The translations under genes were made by a program, and so were the position numbers. This document shows positions 6,252 to 45,800 of a DNA stretch of 64,000 nt, piece by piece (position 1 is the stretch's first letter; the number at the start of each line of letters is the position of its first letter). Below the pieces are notes generated by a model. That model was not told where the DNA came from. It ran no database searches and worked only from the letters and a program-made list of their open reading frames with translations. The stretch spans positions 19,841,255-19,905,254 of the forward strand of contig NC_091138.1 in assembly GCF_041381155.1 (NCBI RefSeq), read 5' to 3'. This DNA comes from Argopecten irradians (taxonomy: Eukaryota > Mollusca > Bivalvia > Pectinida > Pectinidae).

Positions 6252-6607
6252 CACTTGTACTGTAAACGGTGTGTTAGGGAATCACGAAAATAAACCCACA
6301 TCACACTTGTACTGTAAACGGGTGTTAGGGAATCACGAAAATAAACCCACAAGACACTTGTACTGTAAACGGGTGTTAGGGAATCACGAAAATAAACCCA
6401 CATGACACTTGTACTGTAAACGGGCGTTAGGGAATCACGAAAATAAACCCACATGACACTTGTACTGTATGTGGGTGTTAGGGAATCACGAAAATAAACC
6501 CACAAGACACTTGTACTGTAAACGGGTGTTAGGGAATCACGAAAATAAACCCACATGACACTTGTACTGTAAACGGGTGTTAGGGAATCACGAAAATTAA
6601 CCCACAA
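6252..6607. repeat. 51-bp minisatellite, 7 copies
   Basis: Seven nearly identical 51-bp units, each containing CACTTGTACTGTAAACGG and GTTAGGGAATCACGAAAATA. The period is divisible by three and the unit lacks stops in one minus-strand frame, giving an open 17-residue repeat (core YFRDSLTPVYSTSV). Copies differ by single bases without a synonymous bias, and there is no flanking gene structure, so this is read as non-coding. Confidence 0.95.
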
Positions 6608-20385: not shown

Positions 20386-22228
20386 TCCTAGCTCTCTCTG
20401 GTTAGATGCGATACCTTGAGTAAGCCCACCAATGAATTTCTTTTTTCTACACTACTCTGTTTTCTAGATTCTTTTTTTAACAGCTTGATGTTTCAGGTAA
20501 AAAATGAGTGAAAGGTAAAAATTAGGATCCAAATGCTTGGTGTTTTTGTTTATCATTTACCTTCATTGGAGCAGATTGATAAAGATCTTACCGAAAACAT
20601 TTTAATTCAGCCAGTATTTAAAATATTTTCAGTTTGTTTTCTATTGAATTTTGTTTTACATTTTCCCTCCTCTTCCCATGGAGCACCATGACTTGCTATC
20701 AGATGTTTTACATTGCATTAGTAAGGTGTTACCGTGTTTGATACAGTATGGAGGGAAGAGGATCTGTTCAGGGAATGAGGAATACACTTAGTGCTGTAAA
20801 ATGAAGGGTATGTCTTGGCGTTCACACAGTGATAGAAATCGTAATTGATGCTCCTCGATTCCAGTGATTAGATGGGACAAACTCACACCCAGTACCTAAT
20901 TAGTATATGTAACCTTCAGTAGCACTCAATGCTCCTTCTTTTTCTCAGTAATGTTTCACTTTGGCCACAAAACCAATATATCTAATCCTCACAATTCCAC
21001 TCTGTCTAAAAACCTCCATTTTGTATCCCGACTCCCTGGACTGTGGATGTGATTTGATGTATCTGTACTAAATTGAAGGATTCCTACCTCCCGTTGTCTA
21101 ACATATCTACCACCCAGGGGGTTTCCAGTCCCACCCCATTACAGGTAATCATCATCTTTAAATAGACACCTGCCTCGACAAATCCATCTTCCTCTCAACT
21201 GACTCAGCATCACCGAGGTGACTAAGGGATGACTACACCCTCCCTAATTTGTAGATTAAATTATTTATTTGTGTTGTATTTAGGTGACTTATTCTAGCTT
21301 TATCATAATGGAATTAGACCCTTCCTAATGGTAGGCCAATCTTCATTCTGTATCAGCAGTGTGTCTGAGTCAGTGTTAATTCTCCACCCCCAATCCACCT
21401 CTCTAAGCCCAGTAACATGGCATATAGATAAAACTAATCAAAATGATGTAAGCATGTTAGTTTGTTTTCCTGAAACTTGTTATAGCTACAATTATTGCTT
21501 CATCTCTCCTTCCAGTAAGTGTTCACTTATCTTTCTTTAGCAGATGTTTCTTTATTAGCAGTTGTTGTCTTTTATCAGTAATAAGGAGGTGTCTCTTAAT
21601 CAGTGAGTGTCTGATCAGGAGGTGTCTCTTCATCAGTAAGTGTCTGATCAGGAAGTGTCTTTTCATCAGTGATCAGGAGGTGTCTCTTCATTGGATGACT
21701 TCCAATCACTAGATTGTCTCCTCATCTCTTGATATGTCTTCATCAATATATGTCCCACATCAACAGGTCAGCAGGTGTATTTTCATCAATGTTTCTCTCC
21801 ATCAGATGTCTTCCACTCAGTAATTGTCTCCCCTTCTCAGTAATTGTCTCCCCTTCTCAGTAGGACTGTCTATTCATAAGAGATGTCACTTTGTCAGCAC
21901 ATATAGAAGATGTTTCTCCATTTCTTCCTTTAATAGGCTTCCTGCATATATTGGTTGAGCTCTTTCCCCCTTCTCTCTTCTGAAGTTACCACCAGAAAGA
22001 TTGACCACTGTCCTTATTCCCTTGACCACTATAAAACTTGTACAGCTGTTAATTATCTTTACAACTGGTTCGTAACCCTGGGCAGAAAAATAACCAAGCT
22101 GATCTTACATAAAGTATTCTCACTTTCTCCATTTGTCTACTTAGTAGTGATAAGATTGCTGGAGGGGACAGAGAGACCTGTCCCGTGTCACCCTAATGAA
22201 AGACCTCAGATCTGTCACCTGATGGAGC
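20386..22228. other. non-coding stretch with irregular short repeats
   Basis: At 21590-21870 there are irregular copies of an AGGTGTCTCTTCATCAGT-type motif and a 22-bp tandem duplication (CAGTAATTGTCTCCCCTTCT) at about 21835-21880. No gene is seen. A 113-residue plus-strand frame at 21955-22296 runs into the foldback element and is not convincing. Confidence 0.4.
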
Positions 22229-22360
22229 CGGTGTCATATCAAATTTGTATCCCCCATCAAAAAAGTATCCGGATACTTTTTTGTCCATCAAAATAGTATC
22301 CGGGGATACTTTTTTGCCCATCAAAAAAGTATCCCCCCTATCAAAAAAGTATCCCCCCCA
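22229..22360 (+). repeat. left terminal inverted repeat of the foldback element
   Basis: Matches the reverse complement of 28883-28985 with a few indels. It contains several CATCAAAAAAGTATCC units, some fused head-to-head as AAAGTATCCGGATACTTT, itself a palindrome. Confidence 0.8.
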
Positions 22361-23229
22361 TGACATCAATAGTGATTGTTATAATTTTAGTTGGCAGTAA
22401 ATCAAATGGTCATAAAGATATACCAGGAGTCCCTTTACAAGTACCAGGTAACTAATTACACCTGGTCAGGTATTACCTAACTACCTAATTAGTGGTGGGA
22501 CGGACAGGTACAGGTGTGTCTATATATAGGCACTGTCAGATAGTCACCTGTACACAGTGGTATTACCAAATGTTTACCTGTACAGGTACATCATCCCATG
22601 ATTTTATTGTGCTTGCAAATTGATACAATTTATTTATGTTTTCAACCATATGTTTAAAACGATATATATATATAGCTCATTACTTGCATACATATTTTCA
22701 ATTCATATAAATTATGATTATTCAATTATCAAGACCTTGGTTATATAGATACAAACACATTTATAAGCTTATATGTCTATATATGTACCAATTGATACAT
22801 AGGGGGGATACATATTTGATTGCATGATTTTGGATCTGGAAAAAAAAAATAAAATAAAACTTGTCATATATATTTCAGATAATATATTTACTAATTTGAT
22901 GAATACAAATGTAAATCATTTTATGAGTGAATATAAGTGTAAAATGGTATGTCAATTGTAATTCAACTTTATATTAGGATATACACTATATATATGCAGG
23001 TATATATATATATAGTTGCATGAATCTGGAAATAAATCTACAGTTTTGTTGAAAACATCTCAGGGAGATACTTATATTAAAAGGATGTGCGTGTGGACAA
23101 AAATTATACAATATATCATGATGGGGAGGTACAGTACAGTTATAATTATAATGTCCATCAGAGGGAAAATTAATTGATAAAATATCTATAGATTGAAATA
23201 AATATATATATATTTAAATACATGACCAA
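22361..23229. other. left inner flank of the foldback element
   Basis: AT-rich, with ACAGGTA-type motifs at 22440-22580 that are inverted relative to 28690-28810, and short TA-rich microsatellite runs. No gene. Confidence 0.6.
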
Positions 23230-25004
23230 AAGAAAGTATTTGGGGGAGATACTTGTATTATCAAAATGTGGGATTAGGGGGATACATATTTCATGGTCAT
23301 CAAAAAAGTATCTAGGGGAGATTTAAGTGTCATATCTAGAAGGAATTAATACATATTTGTATAGCCATAGAAAAAGTATCTATGGAGAGAAGTCTACTAT
23401 CAAGGGGTACGTAATATATATTTGATGACCATAGAAAAAGTATCAAGGGGGAGATGAGTCTAATATCTAGAGGGGATACATATTTGATGGCAATCGAAAA
23501 AGTATCTAGGAGGTAATTAGTATGATATCTAGGGGGGATACATATTTGATAGCCATAGAAGAAGTACAGTGTGTATATAGAATCAGATTTCTTTAATAAC
23601 TAGGGGGGATACATATTTGATGGCCATAGAAAAAGTATCTAAGGGGGAGATGAGTCTAATATCTAGGGGGGATACATATTTGATGGCCATCGAAAAAGTA
23701 TCTATGGGGAGAGTATAGTCTAATATCTAGGGGGGATACATATTTGATAGCCATCGAAAAAGTATCCAGGGGGAGATTAGTCTAAATTCAAGGGGGGATA
23801 CATATTTGATGGCCACCAAAAAATGTATCTAGGGGGAGATTAGTATGATATCAAGGGGGGATACATATATGATGGCCATCGTAAAAGTATCTATGGGGAG
23901 AGTATAGTCTAATATCTAGGGGGGATACATATTTGATGGCCATCGAAAAAGTATCTAGGGGGAGATTAGTATGATATCTAGGGGGGATACATATTTGATG
24001 GCCATAAAAGAAGTACAGTGTGTATATAGAATGAGATTTCTCTAATATCTAGGGTTGGATACATATTTAATGGTCATCGAAAAAGTATCTAGGGGGGAGA
24101 TAAGTCTAATATCAAGGGGGATACATATTTGATGGCAATCGAAAAAGTATCTATGGGAAGATAATAGTCTAAAATCTATGGGGGATACATATTTGATAGC
24201 CATCGAAAAAGTATCCAGGGGGAGATAATAGTCTAAAATCTATGGGGGATACATATTTGATGGCCACCGAAAAAGTATCTAGGGGGAGATTAGTATAATA
24301 TCTAGGGGGGATACATATTTGATGGCCATCGAAAAAAAATATCTAGGGGGAGATTAGTCTAATATCTAGGGGGGATACATATTTAATAGCCATCGAAAAA
24401 GTATTTAGGGGGAGATTAGTGGAATATTTAGGGGGGAGACATATTTGATGGTCATCGAAAAAGTATCTAGGGGGGGATACATATTTGATGGCCATCAAAA
24501 AAGTATCTAGGGGAAATTAGTCTAATATCTAGGGGGATACATAATTGAAAGCCATTGAAAAAGTATCTAGGGGGAGATTAGTCTAAATTCAAGGGGGGAT
24601 ACATATTTGATGGCCATCAAAAAAGTATCCAGGGGGAGATTAGTATTATATCTAGGGGGGATACATATTTGATGGCCATAAAAGAAGTACAGTGTGTTTA
24701 TAGAATGAGATTTCTCTAATATCTAGGGGGGATACATATTTGATGGCCATAGAAAAAGTATCCAGGGGGAGATTAGTATGATATCTAGGGGGGATACATA
24801 TTTGATAGCCATTGAAAAAGTATCTAGGGGGAGATTAGTATTATATCTAGGGGGGATACATATTTGATGGCCATAGAAGAAGTACAGTGTGTATATAGAA
24901 TGAGATTTATCTAATATCTAGGGGGGATACATATTTGATGGCCATCGAAAAAGTATCTAGGGGGAGATTAGTATGATATCTAGAGGGAATACATATTAAA
25001 TATT
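23230..25004 (+). repeat. left (G-rich) arm: about 28 units of 62 bp
   Basis: Units read CTAGGGGGGATACATATT, then TGATGGCCATCGAAAAAG, TATCTAGGGGGAGATTAG and a short variable tail. Copies are diverged, especially before 23500. A variant unit carrying AGAAGTACAGTGTGTATATA recurs about four times (near 23560, 24005, 24680, 24875), marking higher-order duplication inside this arm. Confidence 0.93.
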
Positions 25005-27175
25005 AACTAATCTCCCCCTAGATACTTTTTCGATGGCCATCAAATATGTATCCCCCTTGATATTAGACTTATCTCCCCCTAGATACTTTTTCTATGGCCA
25101 TCAAATATGTATCCCCCCTAGATATTAGACTTATCTCCCCCTAGATACTTTTTCTATGGCCATCAAATATGTATCCCCCTTAGATATCACACTAATCTCC
25201 CCCTAGATACTTTTTCGATGGCCATCAAATATGTATCCCCCCTAGATATTACACTAATCTCCTAGATACTTTTTCAATGGCCATCAAATATGTACCCCCC
25301 CTAGATATTAGACTTATCTCCCCCTAGATACTTTTTCGATAGCCATCAAATATGTATCCCCCCTAGATATCACACTAATCTCCCCCTAGATACTTTTTCG
25401 ATGGCCATCAAATATGTATCCCCCCTATATATTAGACTTATCTCCCCCTAGATACTTTTTCGATAGCCATCAAATATGTATCCCCCTTAGATATCACATT
25501 AATCTTCCCCTAGATACTTTTTCGAAGGCCATCAAATATGTATCCCCCCTAGATATCACAGTAATCTCCCCCTAGATACTTTTTCGATGGCCATCAAATA
25601 TGTATCCCCCCTAGATATTAGACTTATCTCCCCCTAGATACTTTTTCTATAGCCATCAAATATGTATCCCCCTTAGATATCACACTAATCTCCCCCTAGA
25701 TACTTTTTCGATGGCCATCAAATATGTATCCCCCCTAGATATTACACTAATCTCCTAGATACTTTTTCTATGGCCATCAAATATGTATCCCCCTTAGATA
25801 TCACACTAATCTCCCCCTAGATACTTTTTCGATGGCCATCAAATATGTATCCCCCCTAGATATTACACTAATCTCCCCCTAGATACTTTTTCGATGGCCA
25901 TCAAATATGTATCCCCCCTAGATATAATACTAATCTCCCCCTAGATACTTTTTCTATAGCCATCAAATATGTATCCCCCTTAGATATCACACTAATCTCC
26001 CCCTAGATACTTTTTCGATGGCCATCAAATATGTATCCCCCCTAGATATTACACTAATCTCCTAGATACTTTTTCTATGGCCATCAAATATGTATCCCCC
26101 CTAGATATCACACTAATCTCCCCCTAATTACTTTTTCTATGGCCATCAAATATGTATCCCCCCTAGATATCACACTAATCTCCCCCTAGATACTTTTTCG
26201 ATGGCCATCAAATATGTATCCCCCCTAGATATTAGACTTATCTCCCCCTAGATACTTTTTCTATGGCCATCAAATATGTATCCCCCTTAGATATCACACT
26301 AATCTCCCCCTAGATACTTTTTCAATGGCCATCAAATATGTATCCCCCCTAGATATTAGACTTATCTCCCCCTAGATACTTTTTCTATAGCCATCAAATA
26401 TGTATCCCCCTTAGATATCACACTAATCTCCCCCTAGATACTTTTTCGATGGCCATCAAATATGTATCCCCCCTAGATATTACACTAATCTCCTAGATAC
26501 TTTTTCTATGGCCATCAAATATGTATCCCCCCTAGATATCACACTAATCTCCCCCTAGATACTTTTTCGATGGCCATCAAATATGTATCCCCCCTAGATA
26601 TTAGACTTATCTCCCCCTAGATACTTTTTCTATGGCCATCAAATATGTATCCCCCTTAGATATCACACTAATCTCCCCCTAGATACTTTTTCAATGGCCA
26701 TCAAATATGTATCCCCCCTAGATATTAGACTTATCTCCCCCTAGATACTTTTTCGATAGCCATCAAATATGTATCCCCCCTAAATATCACACTAATCTCC
26801 CCCTAGATACTTTTTCGATGGCCATCAAATATGTATCCCCCCTATATATTAGACTTATCTCCCCCTAGATACTTTTTCGATGGCCATCAAATATGTATCC
26901 CCCCTAGATATTAGACTTATCTCCCCCTAGATACTTTTTCGATAGCCATCAAATATGTATCCCCCCTAGATATCACACTAATCTCCCCCTAGATACTTTT
27001 TCGATGGCCATCAAATATGTATCCACCCTAGATATTCACTAATTTCTATCTAGATATTTTCTCGATAGCCATCAAATATGTATCCCCCTTTGATATTACA
27101 CTTATCTCCCCTAGATAATTTTTCTATGCATGCATGGACATCAGATATGTATCCCCCCTAGATAACACACTTATT
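25005..27175 (-). repeat. right (C-rich) arm: about 35 units of 62 bp
   Basis: Reverse complement of the left-arm unit (TAATCTCCCCCTAGATAC, TTTTTCGATGGCCATCAAA, TATGTATCCCCCCTAGATAT). Copies are much more uniform than in the left arm. A 4-base-deleted variant (TAATCTCCTAGATAC) recurs about four times, and the left-arm 'AGAAGTACAGTG' variant was not seen here, so the arms evolved separately after inversion. Confidence 0.95.
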
Positions 27176-28882
27176 TATCCTCCCTGTTTGTAAAATTCCA
27201 GTTAAAACATATTGAGGATTGAATTATTGATGTATATATATGTATATATGCTTTCCAAATCTTAAAGCTATATGGTCCATAGCGGGGTGAAATGTTTGAT
27301 GGTGTGAAAATCATTCAGATTGAAAGATAAACATGTTTTTGATCTATGCAGGTTTAGATGAAAACATACCTACAGAAGTCCATTCACAATATTACTAAAT
27401 AACACTGTGGAAATGTGAAATGAATTTGTAGACCACACCCACATTAAATTTTTTACCTAATTAGTTTTAATGCATATAAGTACGCATTTCACTGTATGAT
27501 TGTTGCAGTGGTTGATTTACTGCCAAAATTCATTTTGAACTCTTAATTATTATTTGTACACGTAAATTGTGATATATGCATTCCATAATTGGATTTAAAG
27601 ATATTTACTTTGTAATCTCCCTAAGATATTTTATGAGCACCATACATGCATGTACATACAGTAGTATTTTAGTTTAAAGATGATTTCATTGAAAAAAAGA
27701 TAATGATTGATTATAATTGATTTTCAAATTCATTTATATATTATAGTAGATAGTCGGATGTTGACGCATATCAAACACAAAAAACCCTGAATGATGTTAT
27801 AAAAATTTGTACAGGTAATTTTTCAAAACTCATATATTGGCAGCTCAATGTTCAACCCCATCCAATATCTTCTGTCTGCCTCTGTGTCTGCATCCATAAA
27901 ATGCTAAAACAGGTCCCCACCTATTGTATTAATTGTTGTGTGGTATTGATAAAAACAATGCTAGCTACATGTATAGCCCTGAGATAATCCCTGATAATTA
28001 TATCCTTTCTTCTACATGTGTATTACAAATTAATGTCAATTATTGATCATGGTATTGTATAATGTATTTTATCTTGATCAATGCAGACACTTTAACAAAC
28101 AAATTGATCATAAAAAAATATATACATCACATTGTATACACCATTTATTTATTGGAAAATATTAGGTTTCCAATTTGCAATAACATTTATATCTGCAGGC
28201 ATGTTCATAATGCTTCATTATATTGGGGTCTTCTTCGAACACCAACTCTAATTATTTTAATGATCGAATCATATTGGAACTCATATTGGAACATATATAT
28301 CAGCATAATATACCATGATATTAAAAAAGTTTCTGATTGTATTTAATTTAATTGTGTATTATTTTGTTGATCACATAAAATTAGTTAAAGCATTTTTAAC
28401 ATTAGTTTTTAGATATTATCTATTCTCTATAATCATTATTATTTCCTTACTATATACATGTATTTAATTACACTTATATGACTATAGTGCATGCAGTTAG
28501 TATACACAGCTGTCGCTTATTTAATTGTGTATACATAAAATGCAAGTTTCATGTTATATCTGTACACTAAAAAGTATAATTAGATAGTTACATTTCAAAA
28601 CAAATTTTATCTCATAGTTTGGTTTTGGATTGATGCTTATTCTCACTGTTGTGATGATGTGGTAGCTATATATATATATATACACACAGGTAATTTTATA
28701 GGTGCCCTCTACCTGTATCAGTGTCAGGTGTGACCCCCCCCCACTGTGCTGTTATGTAATACAGGTAGACCAGGTGTAATTTACTACCTGTACAGTCACT
28801 TTGTCACCTATATAGGCATATACTGCTGATTTTCTGTTTATTTTCTTAACATTACCAATCTTTATTTGGAAAGCATAAACAG
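27176..28882. other. right inner flank of the foldback element
   Basis: AT-rich sequence with a TA microsatellite at about 28668-28681 and ACAGGTA motifs at 28690-28810. About twice as long as the left flank, so the element is asymmetric; extra unique DNA may have been inserted. The 94-residue plus-strand frame at 28062 is AT-driven and not convincing. Confidence 0.5.
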
Positions 28883-28985
28883 ACAATGGGGGGATACTTT
28901 TTTGATAGGGTGGATACTTTTTTGATGGGCAGAAAAAGTATCCGGATACTTTTTTGATGGGGGATACTTTTTTGATATGACACCG
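28883..28985 (-). repeat. right terminal inverted repeat of the foldback element
   Basis: Inverted counterpart of 22229-22360, ending TTTGATATGACACCG at 28985. It is shorter than the left copy by about one motif. Confidence 0.8.
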
Positions 28986-31608
28986 TCACTCGTACGCTTC
29001 ACTCTATAAATAGATTTAAATCTTAAAAGGTTGTGTAACATCATATCACTGTGGTGTGTTAGACTGGATTATAACACCGTTTGGTGTCACCGGGCTAATT
29101 ATCCTTATACAAATCTATATAACATCACAACAACCTAGTCTAGGCTGTTCAGCAATAAAGCTTCAATTGTTGATATCAGCAGGTTGAAGTATTGTTCAAT
29201 TGAAATTTGTGACTAAGAAAATAATGAATTAGTTTTGTTAGGTATTGATAGATACAAGAAATTAGGACATATAATATGAGATGTAAAGTAAATTGTTATC
29301 AAGTTTCAGAGAATAAGGGTTCTTTTATTCACAAAGTGAATGTTAGTGTGTGTGTGTAAAACATAGGATTTTCTCGCCAAAAGTTCTAACCAATAATATG
29401 CTATGAGAATATTTGACGCTGAAGGATGCAGATTATATGCAAGACAACAAAGAAATGACATCATGTCCTGTCTGTGGAGTGAAGTCATCCCGTTTGGGTG
29501 TGACGTCCTGTCAGATGTGCCATTCCTGTCACAAATATGCCCCTATGCACCTAAGCAGTAATTTTCTCCTGTCTCAAAGAACTCAAATCACAAAAGATAT
29601 TTTATAATGCTATGAAAATGATGGACTAGAAAAAAAAACATATTTTCCTTTGGTAATAGTGGTTAAGATGGGTGTTTTCCAAAGATCTAAAATTTAAAGA
29701 TTTAGAGATGAATTGCACATGAGTAGATAAATCATTGTGCATAAATATTCTGGTAGTTATTGTGGCTTCCAATACTGGTAATTGTGAAGAAGAAAAAAAA
29801 TGCTCAAAATTTCATAAATAAGTCCAATTCTGCACGCATTTAGCAATTTTCAATAATTACCCTTAAATTATATCCTATCATGCCTCCACTTGGCAAAACA
29901 AATTGTAAATCATGTGTTAATACAATAAATTATATGGTAATGGCTGCAGAAAGCCAACAGTTTCCCAGCCCAGGGTGACCTATAAATTATAGAGCTGATA
30001 GCTTGTGGTTGGTCTAGTGGAGATAGAATTAATCATATGATTTAGCTCAATTACTCAGTAAGTGCTCCCAGTATCAGATACAACTTATATTATCTTTATG
30101 GATGGGTAGACAAATAAATGGCCTCCAGCGGAAACTTGAGCCGAACAAAAAAAATGTCAACAGAATTGAGGTTTGAGACAGAAATTTTTGTGTAGGCTTT
30201 GATACAAGGGCCATAGAATAAGAAATGTTTTATTATTTATCGAGATGCTCAGTGTCCTCAAGGGGCAAGCATTCTAAATACAAGGGAACTCTGTCCTAAT
30301 CTATGTCTGATATGTTTAATTTGATAATGTTAGGGTAAGCTCAAGATTGTCCTAGGATCTAGTATTCATGAGACTTCATTTGGTGTGTCTGCCACAATAT
30401 CTCACGATATCTCTTATTGGGATTTGATAAGGCGGTGCTGCAGTATGCATCTAAATGTCAACAAAACTGCAATCTAAAGCAAGTGGGAACTTCTGGTCTA
30501 TGAATATGTTAAATCTTTATCTTCCCCCAGATATCTGTGATCTAGAGGAAGCCAGCAGTCTTTATCAAGGATTTATACTATCTGTGTCCAGGGCGTCTGT
30601 AGTGTTTATGAATTTATGTCCATATCTTTGCTATCTGTAGAGTCCGGAGTCACAGTTCTGCCTGAGTCTATCTCTCCAGTAGCGGGTCTGTGTGTCCAGG
30701 GCCGGAATTAGGGGAAGTGGAGTAGACAGTTGTATAGTAGAGTATATGTGTTTATATCGTGGCCGTGATACCTGGTAAACACACAGCACCCCATCTGTCT
30801 GACCGGCAACACTTGTAACCAATATATGTACCCTGACACCTGATAACATGGGTACACCTCTGTATCTTTACCTGATAGACCCTTTACCCCAGTTACGTAA
30901 CGTTGTTATAGGTCTCAACAAAGGTAAGGCACAACTTGGAGTCCAGAAAGTTATAGAGTAACCATAGGCTATGAGTAGCATACAGTAATAGTGGGGAGGG
31001 GGGTCATGATGTGGCAGCATTCCTCTTAAATACTGAAACTACTTACTGAGGTTGAATTCAAGTTAAACAAAAGCTTCAAACTGATCAAATTTGAGATATT
31101 GTTGAATCTTTAAAAAAAAAAAAAAAGGAAAAAAGCCATTGAAGTACCCAGAGGAGAATGACCGACCTCCAATCAATACCTGGCAACTGCCCACCCAAGG
31201 TGGGTATCACTTTCAACTCAGGTGTGGAGAGTTAGTGATAGTCGTCTTGAAAACTCCGCGATTCTGTACAAAAAACTTTGTAGACAGTTAGTAGTAGTAC
31301 TAGTAGCAGGTTCAATCCTTAATCATCTGTTGTAATATTACATCAACATGTTGATAAGGAAGCTACAAAGGTAGACAAAGGTGTCGGTGAGGGATCGAGG
31401 GATTGGTGATGTGATAGGAAATGACATGTAATTAGGAGTCCAGTGCCAATTTCTACTGATCACTGTGACAGCTGAGCCAAAATGGTGTAACGCTTCCCAG
31501 CAGCTGTATTTCCTAGTTACATAGCTTCCTGGCAGGTTAGTACTGCTTTGTTGGTTTTGGAGGAGTGATCATCTGACAGGAGAAACAAACAGTAGGTATA
31601 AGGACTTT
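28986..31608. other. non-coding stretch with one Cys-rich patch
   Basis: Mostly AT-rich without coding character. It contains the Cys-rich open patch at 29432-29557 (listed separately) and an A-run near 31111-31125. A strong 3' splice-like site (CTTCCCCCAG) near 30530 precedes a short frame, but no matching 5' splice site was found. Confidence 0.4.
29432..29557 (+). CDS. doubtful Cys-rich exon (zinc-finger-like)
   Basis: Open segment encoding a CxxC-x11-CxxCxxC pattern (CPVCGVKSSRLGVTSC, then QMCHSCHKY). The spacing and the residues CGxKSSxxGVTSC recall the first zinc module of nuclear-receptor DNA-binding domains, where the usual gap between Cys pairs is 13 rather than 11. The flanking splice sites (GATGCAG| and AGCA|GTAATT) are weak, with no pyrimidine tract. 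It could be an exon of an unknown gene, a fossil, or chance. Confidence 0.22.
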
Positions 31609-32887
31609 GGGTAGGGATAGTCTTAGAACTGAGGTTAGGTAGGGGGTTTGGATGGGTAGGGATAGTCTTGGAACTGAGGTTAAGTAGGGGGTTTGGATGG
31701 GTAGGGATAGTCTTGGAACTGAGGTTAGGTAGGGGGTTTGGATGGGTAGGGATAGTCTTGGAACTGAGGTTAAGTAGGGGGTTTGGATGGGTAGGGATAG
31801 TCTTGGAACTGAGGTTAGGTAGGGGGTTTGGATGGGTAGGGATAGTCTTGGAACTGAGGTTAAGTAGGGGGTTTGGATGGGTAGGGATAGTCTTGGAACT
31901 GAGGTTAGGTAGGGGGTTTGGATGGGTAGGGATAGTCTTGGAACTGATGTTAAGTAGGGGGTTTGGATGGGTAGGGATAGTCTTGGAACTGAGGTTAGGT
32001 AGGGGGTTTGGATGGGTAGGGATAGTCTTGGAACTGAGGTTAGGTAGGGGGTTTGGATGGGTAGGGATAGTCTTGGAACTGAGGTTAAGTAGGGGGTTTT
32101 GATGGGTAGGGATAGTCTTGGAACTGAGGTTAAGTAGGGGGTTTGGATGGGTAGGGATAGTCTTGGAACTGAGGTTAGGTAGGGGGTTTGGATGGGTAGG
32201 GATAGTCTTGGAACTGAGGTTAAGTAGGGGGTTTGGATGGGTAGGGATAGTCTTGGAACTGAGGTTAGGTAGGGGGTTTGGATGGGTATGGATAGTCTTG
32301 GAACTGAGGTTAAGTAGGGGGTTTGGATGGGTAGGGATAGTCTTGGAACTGAGGTTAGGTAGGGGGTTTGGATGGGTAGGGATAGTCTTGGAACTGAGGT
32401 TAGGTAGGGGGTTTGGATGGGTAGGGATAGTCTTGGAACTGAGGTTAAGTAGGGGGTTTGGATGGGTAGGGATAGTCTTGGAACTGAGGTTAGGTAGGGG
32501 GTTTGGATGGGTAGGGATAGTCTTGGAACTGAGGTTAGGTAGGGGGTTTGGATGGGTAGGGAAAGTCTTGGAACTGAGGTTAGGTAGGGGGTTTGGATGG
32601 GTAGGGATAGTCTTGGAACTGAGGTTAGGTAGGGGGTTTGGATGGGTAGGGATAGTCTTGGAGCTGAGGTTAGGTAGGGGGTTTGGATGGGTAGGGATAG
32701 TCTTGGATGGGTAGGGATAGTCTTAGAACTGAGGTTAGGTAGGGGGTTTGGATGGGTAGGGATAGTCTTGGAACTGAGGTTAGGTAGGGGGTTTGGATGT
32801 GTAGGGATAGTCTTGGAACTGAGGTTAGGTAGGGGGTTTGGATGGGTAGGGATAGTCTTGGAACTGAGGTTAGGTTGGGGGTTTGGA
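31609..32887. repeat. 45-bp G-rich minisatellite, about 28 copies
   Basis: Units of 45 bp containing GGGATAGTCTTGGAACTGAG and TAGGTAGGGGGTTTGGATGG. Two variants (TTAGGTAGGG and TTAAGTAGGG) alternate through the first nine copies, then the G variant dominates to the right. A partial unit sits at about 32700-32720. The period is a multiple of three, so plus-strand frames of 144 and 198 codons run through it with a 15-residue repeat; stop-free by composition rather than selection, in my reading. Confidence 0.95.
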
Positions 32888-39379: not shown

Positions 39380-40745
39380 ATATAATTAACTATATATAAC
39401 TAGCATTCAGTACTTAGTATTTACTTACATAGCTGGAAAAGTATCTTAGAATGATATAATTAACTATATATAACTAGCATTCAGTACTTAGTATTTACTT
39501 ACATAGCTGGAAAAGTATCTTAGAATGATATAATTAACTATATATAACTAGCATTCAGTACTTAGTATTTACTTACATAGCTGGAAAAGTGTCTTAGAAT
39601 GATATAATTAACTATATATAACTAGCATTCAGTACTTAGTATTTACTTACATAGCTGGAAAAGTATCTTAGAATGATATAATTAACTATATATAACTAGC
39701 ATTCAGTACTTAGTATTTACTTACATAGCTGGAAAAGTGTCTTAGAATGATATAATTAACTATATATAACTAGCATTCAGTACTTAGTATTTACTTACAT
39801 AGCTGGAAAAGTGTCTTAGAATCATATAATCAACTATATATAACTAGCATTCAGTACTTAGTATTTACTTACATAGCTGGAAAAGTATCTTAGAATGATA
39901 TAATTAACTATATATATAACTAGCATTCAGTACTTAGTATTTACTTACATAGCTGGAAAAGTATCTTAGAATGATATAATTAACTATATATAACTAGCAT
40001 TCAGTACTTAGTATTTACTTACATAGCTGGAAAAGTGTCTTAGAATGATATAATTAACTATATATAACTAGCATTCAGTACTTAGTATTTACTTACATAG
40101 CTGGAAAAGTATCTTAGAATGATATAATTAACTATATATAACTAGCATTCAGTACTTAGTATTTACTTACATAGCTGGAAAAGTATCTTAGAATGATATA
40201 ATTAACTATATATAACTAGCATTCAGTACTTAGTATTTACTTACATAGCTGGAAAAGTATCTTAGAATGATATAATTAACTATATATAACTAGCATTCAG
40301 TACTTAGTATTTACTTACATAGCTGGAAAAGTATCTTAGAATGATATAATTAACTATATATAACTAGCATAGATAATACTTATTAATATACATTCAGTAC
40401 TTAGTGTTTACTTACATAGCTGGAAAAGTGTCTTAGAATGATATAATCAACTATATATAACTAGCATTCAGTACTTAGTATTTACTTACATAGCTGGAAA
40501 AGTATCTTAGAATGATATAATTAACTATATATAACTAGCATTCAGTACTTAGTATTTACTTACATAGCTGGAAAAGTATCTTAGAATGATATAATTAACT
40601 ATATATAACTAGCATTCAGTACTTAGTATTTACTTACATAGCTGGAAAAGTGTCTTAGAATCATGTGAATTGTTCACTTTCTGGAAAAGTGTCTTAGAAT
40701 TATGTGAATTGTTCAATTTCTGGAAAAGTGTCTTGGAATCATGAG
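39380..40745. repeat. 74-bp AT-rich tandem array, about 17 copies
   Basis: Units contain TAGCATTCAGTACTTAGTAT, TTACTTACATAGCTGGAAAA and AACTATATATAACTAG. Copies are nearly identical apart from a few single-base differences (GTATCTTAG/GTGTCTTAG) and one insertion near 40370-40392. Shorter derivatives carrying only CTGGAAAAGTGTCTTAGAAT continue at 40660-40745. Confidence 0.95.
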
Positions 40746-42832: not shown

Positions 42833-45800
42833 GTAGGTCATGAGTGTAAAAGTAGGGCACACATTTAATTTGTGCCCATCATCACATTCAGGTAAAAAAA
42901 GAGGATTATACTGATATAACTTTCAAAAATCAAATCATTCATATCTACGTAGTCCGAACTTCTCAAAACAGTTCCTATCCTGATTGTTACCTATAACAAC
43001 ATATGTTTTCAGATCTACTGTTAATGCTTTACATGTGTATGTCAGATAGGTGTTCATTTTGTGGTGTTTATAATTAATACATAAAGGATCTTCCACTCGT
43101 GGCTGTGTGATATGAAATTTGTATATATCAAACGAGTTCAATAATTTCATATGCCACGAGCCTTAAGGCCGTATGTCATGATTGGACTAGCCAGTTATGG
43201 GATAAAAAAATGTATCCATCAATTGATCTTGAGTGGTACAAAACCTCTGCATGGCAGTTGCCAGCCAAAAAGGCAAGTGAGTTTATGTCATGATGCTTTG
43301 TCCAGGGTTTATGTCGTGATGCTTTGTCCAGTGTTTATGTCATGATGCTTGTCCGGTGTTTATGTCATGATGCTTTGTCCAGGGTTTATGTCATGATGCT
43401 TTGTCCAGTGATGTTGTCAGTGTTTATGGATGCTTTGTCCAGTGTTTATGTCATGATGCTTTGTCCAGTGTTTATGTCATGATGCTTTGTCCAGGGTTTA
43501 TGTCATGATGCTTTGTCCAGTGTTTATGTCATGATGCTTTGTCCAGTGTTTATGTCATGATGCTTTGTCCAGGTTTATGTCATGATGCTTTGTCCAGTGT
43601 TTATGTCATGATGCTTTGTCCAGTGTTTATGTCATGATGCTTTGTCCAGTGTTTATGTCATGATGCTTTGTCCAGTGTTTATGTCATGATGCTTTGTCCA
43701 GTGTTTATGTCATGATGCTTTGTCCAGTGTTTATGTCATGATGCTTTGTCCAGTGTTTATGTTGATGCTTTGTCCAGTGTTTATGTCATGATGCTTTGTC
43801 CAGTGTTTATGTCATGATGCTTTGTCCAGGGTTTATGTTATGATGCTTTGTCCAGTGTTTATGTCATGATGCTTTGTCCAGGTTTATGTCATGATGCTTT
43901 GTCCAGGTTTATGTCATGATGTCTTTGTCAGGCTTGCCAGTGTTTATGTCATGATGTCCGGGTTTGTCATGATGCTTGTCCAGAGTTTATGTCATGATGC
44001 TTTGTCCAGGGTTTATGTCATGATGCTTTGTCCAGGGTTTATGTCATGATGCTTTGTCCAGGGTTTATGTCATGATGCTTTGTCCAGTGTTTATGTCATG
44101 ATGCTTTGTCCAGTGTTTATGTCATGATGCTTTGTCCAGTGTTTATGTCATGATGCTTTGTCCAGGGTTTATGTCATGATGCTTTGTCCAGTGTTTATGT
44201 TATGATGCTTTGTCCAGGGTTTATGTCATGATGCTTTGTCCAGGGTTTATGTCATGATGCTTTGTCCAGTGTTTATGTCATGATGCTTTGTCCAGTGTTT
44301 ATGTCATGATGCTTTGTCCAGTGTTTTGTCAGATGCTTTGTCAGTGTTTATGTCATGATGCTTTGTCCAGGTTTATGTCATGATGCTTTGTCAGGTTTTA
44401 TATGTCGTTATGATGTGCTTTGTCCAGGGTAGTCATGATGCTTTGTCCAGGTTTATGTCATGATGCTTTGTCCAGTGTTTATGTCATGATGCTTTGTCCA
44501 GTGTTTATGTCATGATGCTTTGTCCAGGGTTTATGTCATGATGCTTTGTCCAGGGTTTATGTCATGATGCTTTGTCCAGGGTTTATGTCATGATGCTTTG
44601 TCCAGGGTTTATGTCATGATGCTTTGTCCAGTGTTTATGTCATGATGCTTTGTCCAGTGTTTATGTCATGATGCTTTGTCCAGTGTTTATGTCATGATGC
44701 TTTGTCCAGTGTTTATGATGATGCTGCTTTGTCCAGTGTTTATGTCATGATGCTTTGTCCAGTGTTTATGTCATGATGCTTTGTCCAGTGTTTATGTCAT
44801 GATGCTTTGTCCAGTGTTTATGTATGATGCTTTGTCCAGTGTTTATGTCATGATGCTTTGTCCAGTGTTTATGTCATGATGCTTTGTCCAGTGTTTATGT
44901 CATGATGCTTTGTCCAGTGTTTATGTCATGATGCTTTGTCCAGTGTTTATGTCATGATGCTTTGTCCAGTGTTTATGTCATGATGCTTTGTCCAGGGTTT
45001 ATGTCATGATGCTTTGTCCAGGGTTTATGTCATGATGCTTTGTCCAGGGTTTATGTCATGATGCTTTGTCCAGGGTTTATGTCATGATGCTTTGTCCAGT
45101 GTTTATGTCATGATGCTTTGTCCAGTGTTTATGTCATGATGCTTTGTCCAGGGTTTATGTCATGATGCTTTGTCCAGTGTTTATGTCATGATGCTTTGTC
45201 CAATGGCCGGCTGTTAACTTTTCTCTTTAAACAACTTTATTATTAAGTTACTGTGGTAAACCATGGGGAAGTCTTCATGACACTCTATGGTCATTAACAT
45301 TACACAATAATTAGCAGATAGTAGTTGAGGGATTCAAGTCCATTTAGCCCTCCTTCTTCAGACACCTTGGAATTCCTCCTCTTCCAAAAGCTAACATGTC
45401 CTTCAGTGATATTCTGATCCATCAAGAGTTACTCCCCTTTGTCCCTTCTCTGGTATAGCAGCAGTCCAAATTGACAATCAATAGACAATAGTTATAAAAT
45501 CAGTAGCTTTTATCATTAAGTTTTCAAGATAACATGTGTCTATTTTGTTTTTATCAAATTTATTACACTTTTTATGTATGTGCTTTATTTAATGGATTAA
45601 TTTGATACCAGATACAATAGCTTTACCACCATATAACATGAAATTTAAATATAATCTGTTAACTTTCAGTCGTGAGAAAAACCTGAACACTGGCCTCCAT
45701 CCTGATATACAGAGACGCATCAAATTACCAGAACGGGAGCTCAAGGTAAGATTGTTATAGACTATATAAGGCGTAATGGTTAAAGGGATAGGTGGTAAAG

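Follow-up and report, generated by a model that had tools for sequence, protein, structure and literature searches.

Ginger1 transposons have TGTNR ends, terminal inverted repeats (TIRs) of about 40-270 bp and target site duplications (TSDs) that are CCGG in 75% and CCGT or ACGG in 24%, according to the accessible part of PMC2836005, which also gives approximately 2.6-7 kb for full-length elements (Bao, Kapitonov and Jurka 2010, PMC2836005). Foldback arms have so far been described, in the accessible portions of the literature, for transposons of the P (Galileo) and Mutator (Tm1) kinds. Galileo has foldback-like arms with internal tandem repeats, changes in arm length and exchange between copies (PMC3573991, PMC4168063), and its arm repeats contain binding sites for the transposase domain (PMC3688188). 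Tm1 is a Mutator-like foldback element with 9-bp duplications and occurs in transposase-bearing and MITE-like forms (PMC3169594). Tetris is an apparently non-autonomous foldback element whose internal tandem repeats fed satellite DNA (PMC4079207). Among open-access titles and abstract openings we found no description of a foldback Ginger. A satellite of C. gigas, CgiSat41, is annotated as DNA/Ginger1 in a table of PMC8268682, which bears on a link between Ginger1 and satellites.

Here we describe such arms together with Ginger1 features in Argopecten irradians. The window, a stretch of 64,000 nucleotides (C5:19841255-19905254), was analysed along with 845.8 Mb of genome sequence. It contains a transposon that starts with TGTCATATC and finishes with GATATGACA (Table 1). 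The first-pass annotation, made from the sequence alone, had described a foldback-type transposon with two opposed arrays of 62-bp units, and both TRF and a self-alignment agreed. TRF returned units of 62-64 bp, with about 27 G-rich copies as two overlapping rows and 34.6 C-rich copies (25000-27128), and a stricter motif count gave 26 and 35 units, close to the roughly 28 and 35 that had been proposed. The arrays meet at about 25000, next to the predicted junction near 25005. The arms are inverted repeats that align at 84% over 1752 bp in the BLAST self-alignment. Arm symmetry varies among copies. The central 1401 nt were folded into a single hairpin of -565.9 kcal/mol (DNA parameters; an energy without a shuffle baseline).

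Table 1. Features of the foldback element and its target sites in the window. Block matches are to GGGGATACTTTTTTGAT, with up to 4 substitutions and in both orientations.
Feature	Position	Strand	Basis and remarks
Left target site CCGG	22228..22231	.	Target-site comparison; CCGG before 41 of 57 exact ends genome-wide
Whole transposon	22232..28982		6,751 bp; ends set by comparison of copies
Left TIR	22232..22358	+	Begins TGTCATATCAAATTTGTATCCCCC; 7 block matches
Left unique segment	22359..23276	+	Within the 1048-bp left end common to other copies; 2 block matches
G-rich array, 62-bp units	23277..24997	+	About 26-27 units (TRF, motif count); 37 block matches
Array junction GGGAATACATATTAAATATTAACTAATCTCCCCC	24985..25018	.	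Comparison of copies
C-rich array, 62-bp units	25000..27164	-	About 35 units, with an additional period of 431 bp; TRF stops at 27128, remainder to 27164 set by eye; 53 block matches
Right unique segment	27165..28887	+	Within the 1821-bp right end common to other copies; 0 block matches
Right TIR	28888..28982	-	Terminates ...GATATGACA; 4 block matches
Right target site CCGT	28983..28986	.	Mismatched to the left CCGG in the window copy

The TIRs, previously listed as the third layer of the structure, were recovered at 82% over 111 bp (22229-22338 versus 28888-28985). With as many as 3 mismatches allowed, the 24-nt end pattern occurred in the window solely at 22232-22255 and 28959-28982, and in none of 100 shuffles. 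The proposed second layer of inverted flanks did not hold up. Its sole match, of about 43 bp (22441-22481 versus 28751-28793), was equalled or exceeded in 4 of 100 block shuffles, and BLAST between the unique flanks listed no further inverted pair. The limits had been drawn at 22229 and 28985; by comparison of copies the ends lie three bases further inside, and the extra CGG and CCG belong to the target site. At gathering scores the window contained no Rfam match, and ARAGORN called no tRNA gene in the window or in L016.

The ends, the target sites and the protein-coding relatives tie the element to Ginger1. It has the TGTNR-type ends (here TGTCA), the TIR length (about 95-127 bp) and the CCGG duplication of Ginger1; the latter is seen in the majority of the family, but not in the window copy with its CCGG and CCGT. 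The relatives have an integrase-type H2C2/DDE transposase, and H2C2, a DDE core and a GPY/F motif (GPF, by eye) were found together only in the relative on C2 described below. Unlike the Ginger1 elements of PMC2836005, where the accessible text mentions no arrays, this element carries opposed 62-bp arrays as foldback arms, and its transposase-bearing relative measures 22.9 kb, whereas the sizes given there are about 2.6-7 kb.

Long inverted arms of tandem subrepeats are the architecture of foldback elements. As far as the published descriptions could be accessed, the window element resembles Galileo in its foldback-like arms of internal tandem repeats, varying arm length and exchange between copies, and it has the foldback structure in common with Tm1 and with Tetris, whose repeats are about 220 bp compared to 62 bp here. 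With arms so alike, long, inverted and internally repetitive, and in Galileo containing binding sites, one could think of the Mutator or P superfamily as the home of this foldback element. However, the TSDs here are 4-5 bp and mostly CCGG, compared to 9 bp in Mutator-affiliated Tm1 and 7 bp in Galileo of D. willistoni, and the transposase in the relatives is of the integrase type and not of the kind that belongs to those superfamilies. We therefore regard such an affiliation as highly improbable. Galileo further differs in its TIRs, which span about 0.3-1.2 kb and reach 4.2-4.7 kb in a single copy from D. willistoni. The Ginger1 transposase is related to LTR-retrotransposon integrases, and foldback structure in this group suggests that hairpin arms evolve repeatedly.

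It had been proposed to search the genome for elements with the same terminus, and further copies do exist. With the left 372 bp as a query we obtained at least 73 matching pieces (40 of 105 candidates scored), and with the right 386 bp at least 42 (40 of 109 scored); 20 further left-end loci were taken for comparison. The length from end to end was 4.7-7.2 kb in 13 elements (the window copy and 12 others), and the median pairwise substitution among 14 copies was 0.67% in the left end and 0.66% in the right end. L018 combines a young left end with a right end that stands apart at about 7%, so this copy seems chimeric. Not all copies are independent insertions, since L022 and L025 have the left flank in common, and by eye the right flank too, and one left flank is also common to L013 and L019. 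The numbers of G-rich and C-rich units varied, with extremes of 10/24, 23/5 and 74/7, the last in a copy (L015) that is entangled with its neighbour L023.

Palindromes and arrays are easily misassembled, and the first-pass annotation had stated that an artefact at the palindrome centre must be excluded. Of 16 copies, distributed over several contigs, 13 had exactly the junction GGGAATACATATTAAATATTAACTAATCTCCCCC; it was reverse-complemented in L009 and different in L018 and L024. The same junction in so many copies, though their array lengths vary, together with one inverted instance, argues against an assembly artefact, which we consider extremely unlikely. In L009, most of the units that border the junction belong, on either side, to the type of the opposite arm, which is what a central inversion via exchange between the arms would give. 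Among the unit types of 14 copies, 143 were found in the G arm, 116 in the C arm and 10 in both; when the 15 copies without L009 were compared, the arms had 4 types in common.

The exact 24-nt end pattern was found 57 times in the genome and its reversed form not once. This number is not the number of events, since an element can contribute two ends and duplicated insertions enter the count as well. The ends of the family are of the TGTCATATCAAA type, usually with CCGG duplications. In 10 of the 12 copies with both flanks read the target duplications matched (CCGG in seven, CCGC, ATTAT and ACCCG in one each), so that two of the ten are 5 bp rather than 4; the unmatched ones were L017 and the window copy. 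The pattern CCGGTGTCATATCAAA had 80 matches in the genome, 39 of them outside the 57 exact TIR ends, and these include true ends with small differences, namely the neighbour of L009 and the right end of L025. Six other places with this pattern that we fetched (L037-L042) were rejected as family ends, as by eye they all represent one unrelated dispersed sequence.

For the empty sites, which had been suggested as a check on mobility, we joined the flanks of 12 sites with one duplication and searched six of them (L012, L013, L014, L021, L022 and the window copy). Contiguous matches to the joined flanks were obtained for five: L012 on C549 and C236 (99%), L013 on C13 (100%), L014 on C315 (98%), L022 in many members of one repeat, and L021 at two places (98-99%) and also in many members of a dispersed repeat (about 91%). 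These empty sites are either allelic or paralogous. The joined flanks of the window copy gave no empty site, so the check succeeded for other copies and not for this one. The foldback element is real and probably recently mobile. The window copy and L024 (C5:19980791) lie in inverse orientation 117 kb apart, with the left flank in common at about 83-85.5% (85.5% over 400 bp) and without a match between the right flanks. The pair may reflect an inversion or a duplication.

Next, we consider the source of the transposase. With the protein frame of the C2 relative as a query, tblastn (E up to 1e-3) found nothing in either the window or the 20 stretches that had been fetched. Since the foldback copies have no gene, any movement must be in trans. 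The leading 9-10 kb of the large relatives contained no transposase among the open frames listed, but arrays and short frames only. The route to the transposase was a search for OTU domains (67 matches), which led to L043 and from there to the C2 relative. L043 itself (L043:226-2055, C27:119925-121754) holds a 610-aa Ginger1 frame with H2C2, rve and OTU above the cut-offs, and open copies of this type, 99-100% identical, are present on C27, C327 and C674. They represent a further Ginger1 family, possibly an active one.

The C2 relative (C2:21763228-21786091) is 22,864 bp long and is bounded by the ends of the foldback family. Its G array comprises about 50 units (21764169-21767798) and its C array about 90 (21777191-21782844), and a satellite of 23 bp is present in about 172 copies (21768121-21772101). 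The arms of this element align at 80-81% over 3.7 kb. Between the two arrays, on the minus strand, there is an open frame of 643 aa (21775190-21777118) with Pfam matches to Integrase_H2C2 (3e-21) and rve (1.6e-12), both above the cut-offs, and with D-35-E and a GPF motif, both read by eye. Ginger1 transposases further have a YPYY motif upstream of the zinc finger, not located here, and a C-terminal OTU or Ulp1 domain, with PHD. Downstream of this frame a PHD match reached 17.9 bits, below the cut-off of 24, and a stretch with a Ulp1-like motif has no Ulp1 match in Pfam. The target sites of the C2 relative are CCGG on the left and GATG on the right, and because of this mismatch it may be rearranged. 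Compared with the window copy it is 97% identical over the first 372 bases and 87% over 861 aligned bases on the left, and 90% over the last 386 and 77% over 1,295 bases on the right. Judged by sequence, the C2 element is a cousin of the window copy and not its parent.

When 69 of 3068 candidates were scored, the C2 frame had at least 20 matches in the genome with E values of 1e-60 or below. Four of the listed matches lie near family ends (C2:21775190, C16:34441557, C16:34405964 and C731:15335), and the C2 copy is the sole open frame, the C16 pair and the C731 copy being broken. These three have the same orientation relative to the right end; no left end was found for either C16 copy, and the C731 right end lacks a match over its last 59 bases. 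In both copies that could be read at this point (C2 and C16), an array is positioned directly upstream of the transposase exon. In C2 a CTAG follows 85 bp after the start of the last array unit, and C16 shows a similar arrangement. The CTAG looks like a splice acceptor, so the array is probably located in an intron or leader of the transposase gene. We infer a further exon upstream.

The same ends, the opposed arrays and an integrase-type frame in the 22.9-kb relative point to a non-autonomous, foldback-armed Ginger1 that was very probably derived by internal deletion from a larger array-bearing Ginger1 and spread in trans. The ancestor would have been a larger Ginger1 with opposed 62-bp arrays in subterminal position and an integrase-type transposase gene in between. 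An internal deletion with both breakpoints within the arrays would have removed the gene and brought the arms together. The short form would afterwards have spread with a Ginger1 integrase moving it in trans. This enzyme would act on the TGT.../...ACA ends, and insertion would yield 4-bp, at times 5-bp, target duplications that are mostly CCGG.

By eye, the 62-bp unit consists of two opposed copies of the block GGGGATACTTTTTTGAT, which also fills the TIRs. The remaining 57 kb of the window had 2 matches to the block, and 50 Markov sequences of the element's length had a mean of 0.48. Since the unit shares this block with the TIRs, and the arm repeats of Galileo bind the transposase domain according to the accessible part of that work, our best guess is that the arrays would serve as extra transposase-binding sites. 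It could tentatively be added that foldback arms arose independently in Ginger1 as amplified binding arrays, that non-autonomous copies, at about 100 sites each, may titrate or outcompete the transposase, and that the arms flip and exchange by recombination, as in the L009 inversion and the L018 chimera. If the shared block is a binding site, the family would make it possible to study the number of sites that an integrase-type transposase requires.

There is a real chance, though short of a probable one, that the arrays are passengers, a satellite-like expansion in non-coding parts with no role in transposition. Conservation of the block does not significantly exceed that of the remaining unit (the same level is attained by 15 of 45 rotations), and the 22.9-kb relative carries its 23-bp satellite as well. 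Moreover, a Ginger1 frame that is 49% identical (C2:64787184) has a different tandem array directly upstream, so arrays may simply accumulate there. End-only palindromes, including one with a CCGG duplication, also fit with passengers, and if they moved in this form the arrays may be dispensable. Against it, the unit and the TIRs have their building block in common, and in the 22.9-kb relative the transposase lies between opposed arrays built from that unit. The arms could also be a putative source of double-stranded RNA that feeds small RNAs, in line with their extensive self-complementarity. This seems rather unlikely, as the two arms of some copies differ greatly in length (L012 has 5 C-rich units and L015 has 7), so that not every copy retains a long duplex. 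Binding sites remain our preferred guess for the arrays.

The same genome harbours foldback copies that are young, an end-only palindrome of 78 bp and a relative with an open transposase frame. The palindromes are L050 (C12:19713617-19713694, 78 bp, flanks CCGG/CCGG) and L051 (C10:37456375-37456451, 77 bp, flanks CCGG/CCAG), and they either moved in that form or collapsed in place. The array upstream of the C2:64787184 frame is found at L049:353-1329 (within C2:64785700-64787250) and has periods of about 127-190 bp. Other tandem arrays in the window are located at 6252-6606 (51-bp units), 31608-32887 (45-bp), 39380-40661 (74-bp) and 43281-45202 (26-bp).
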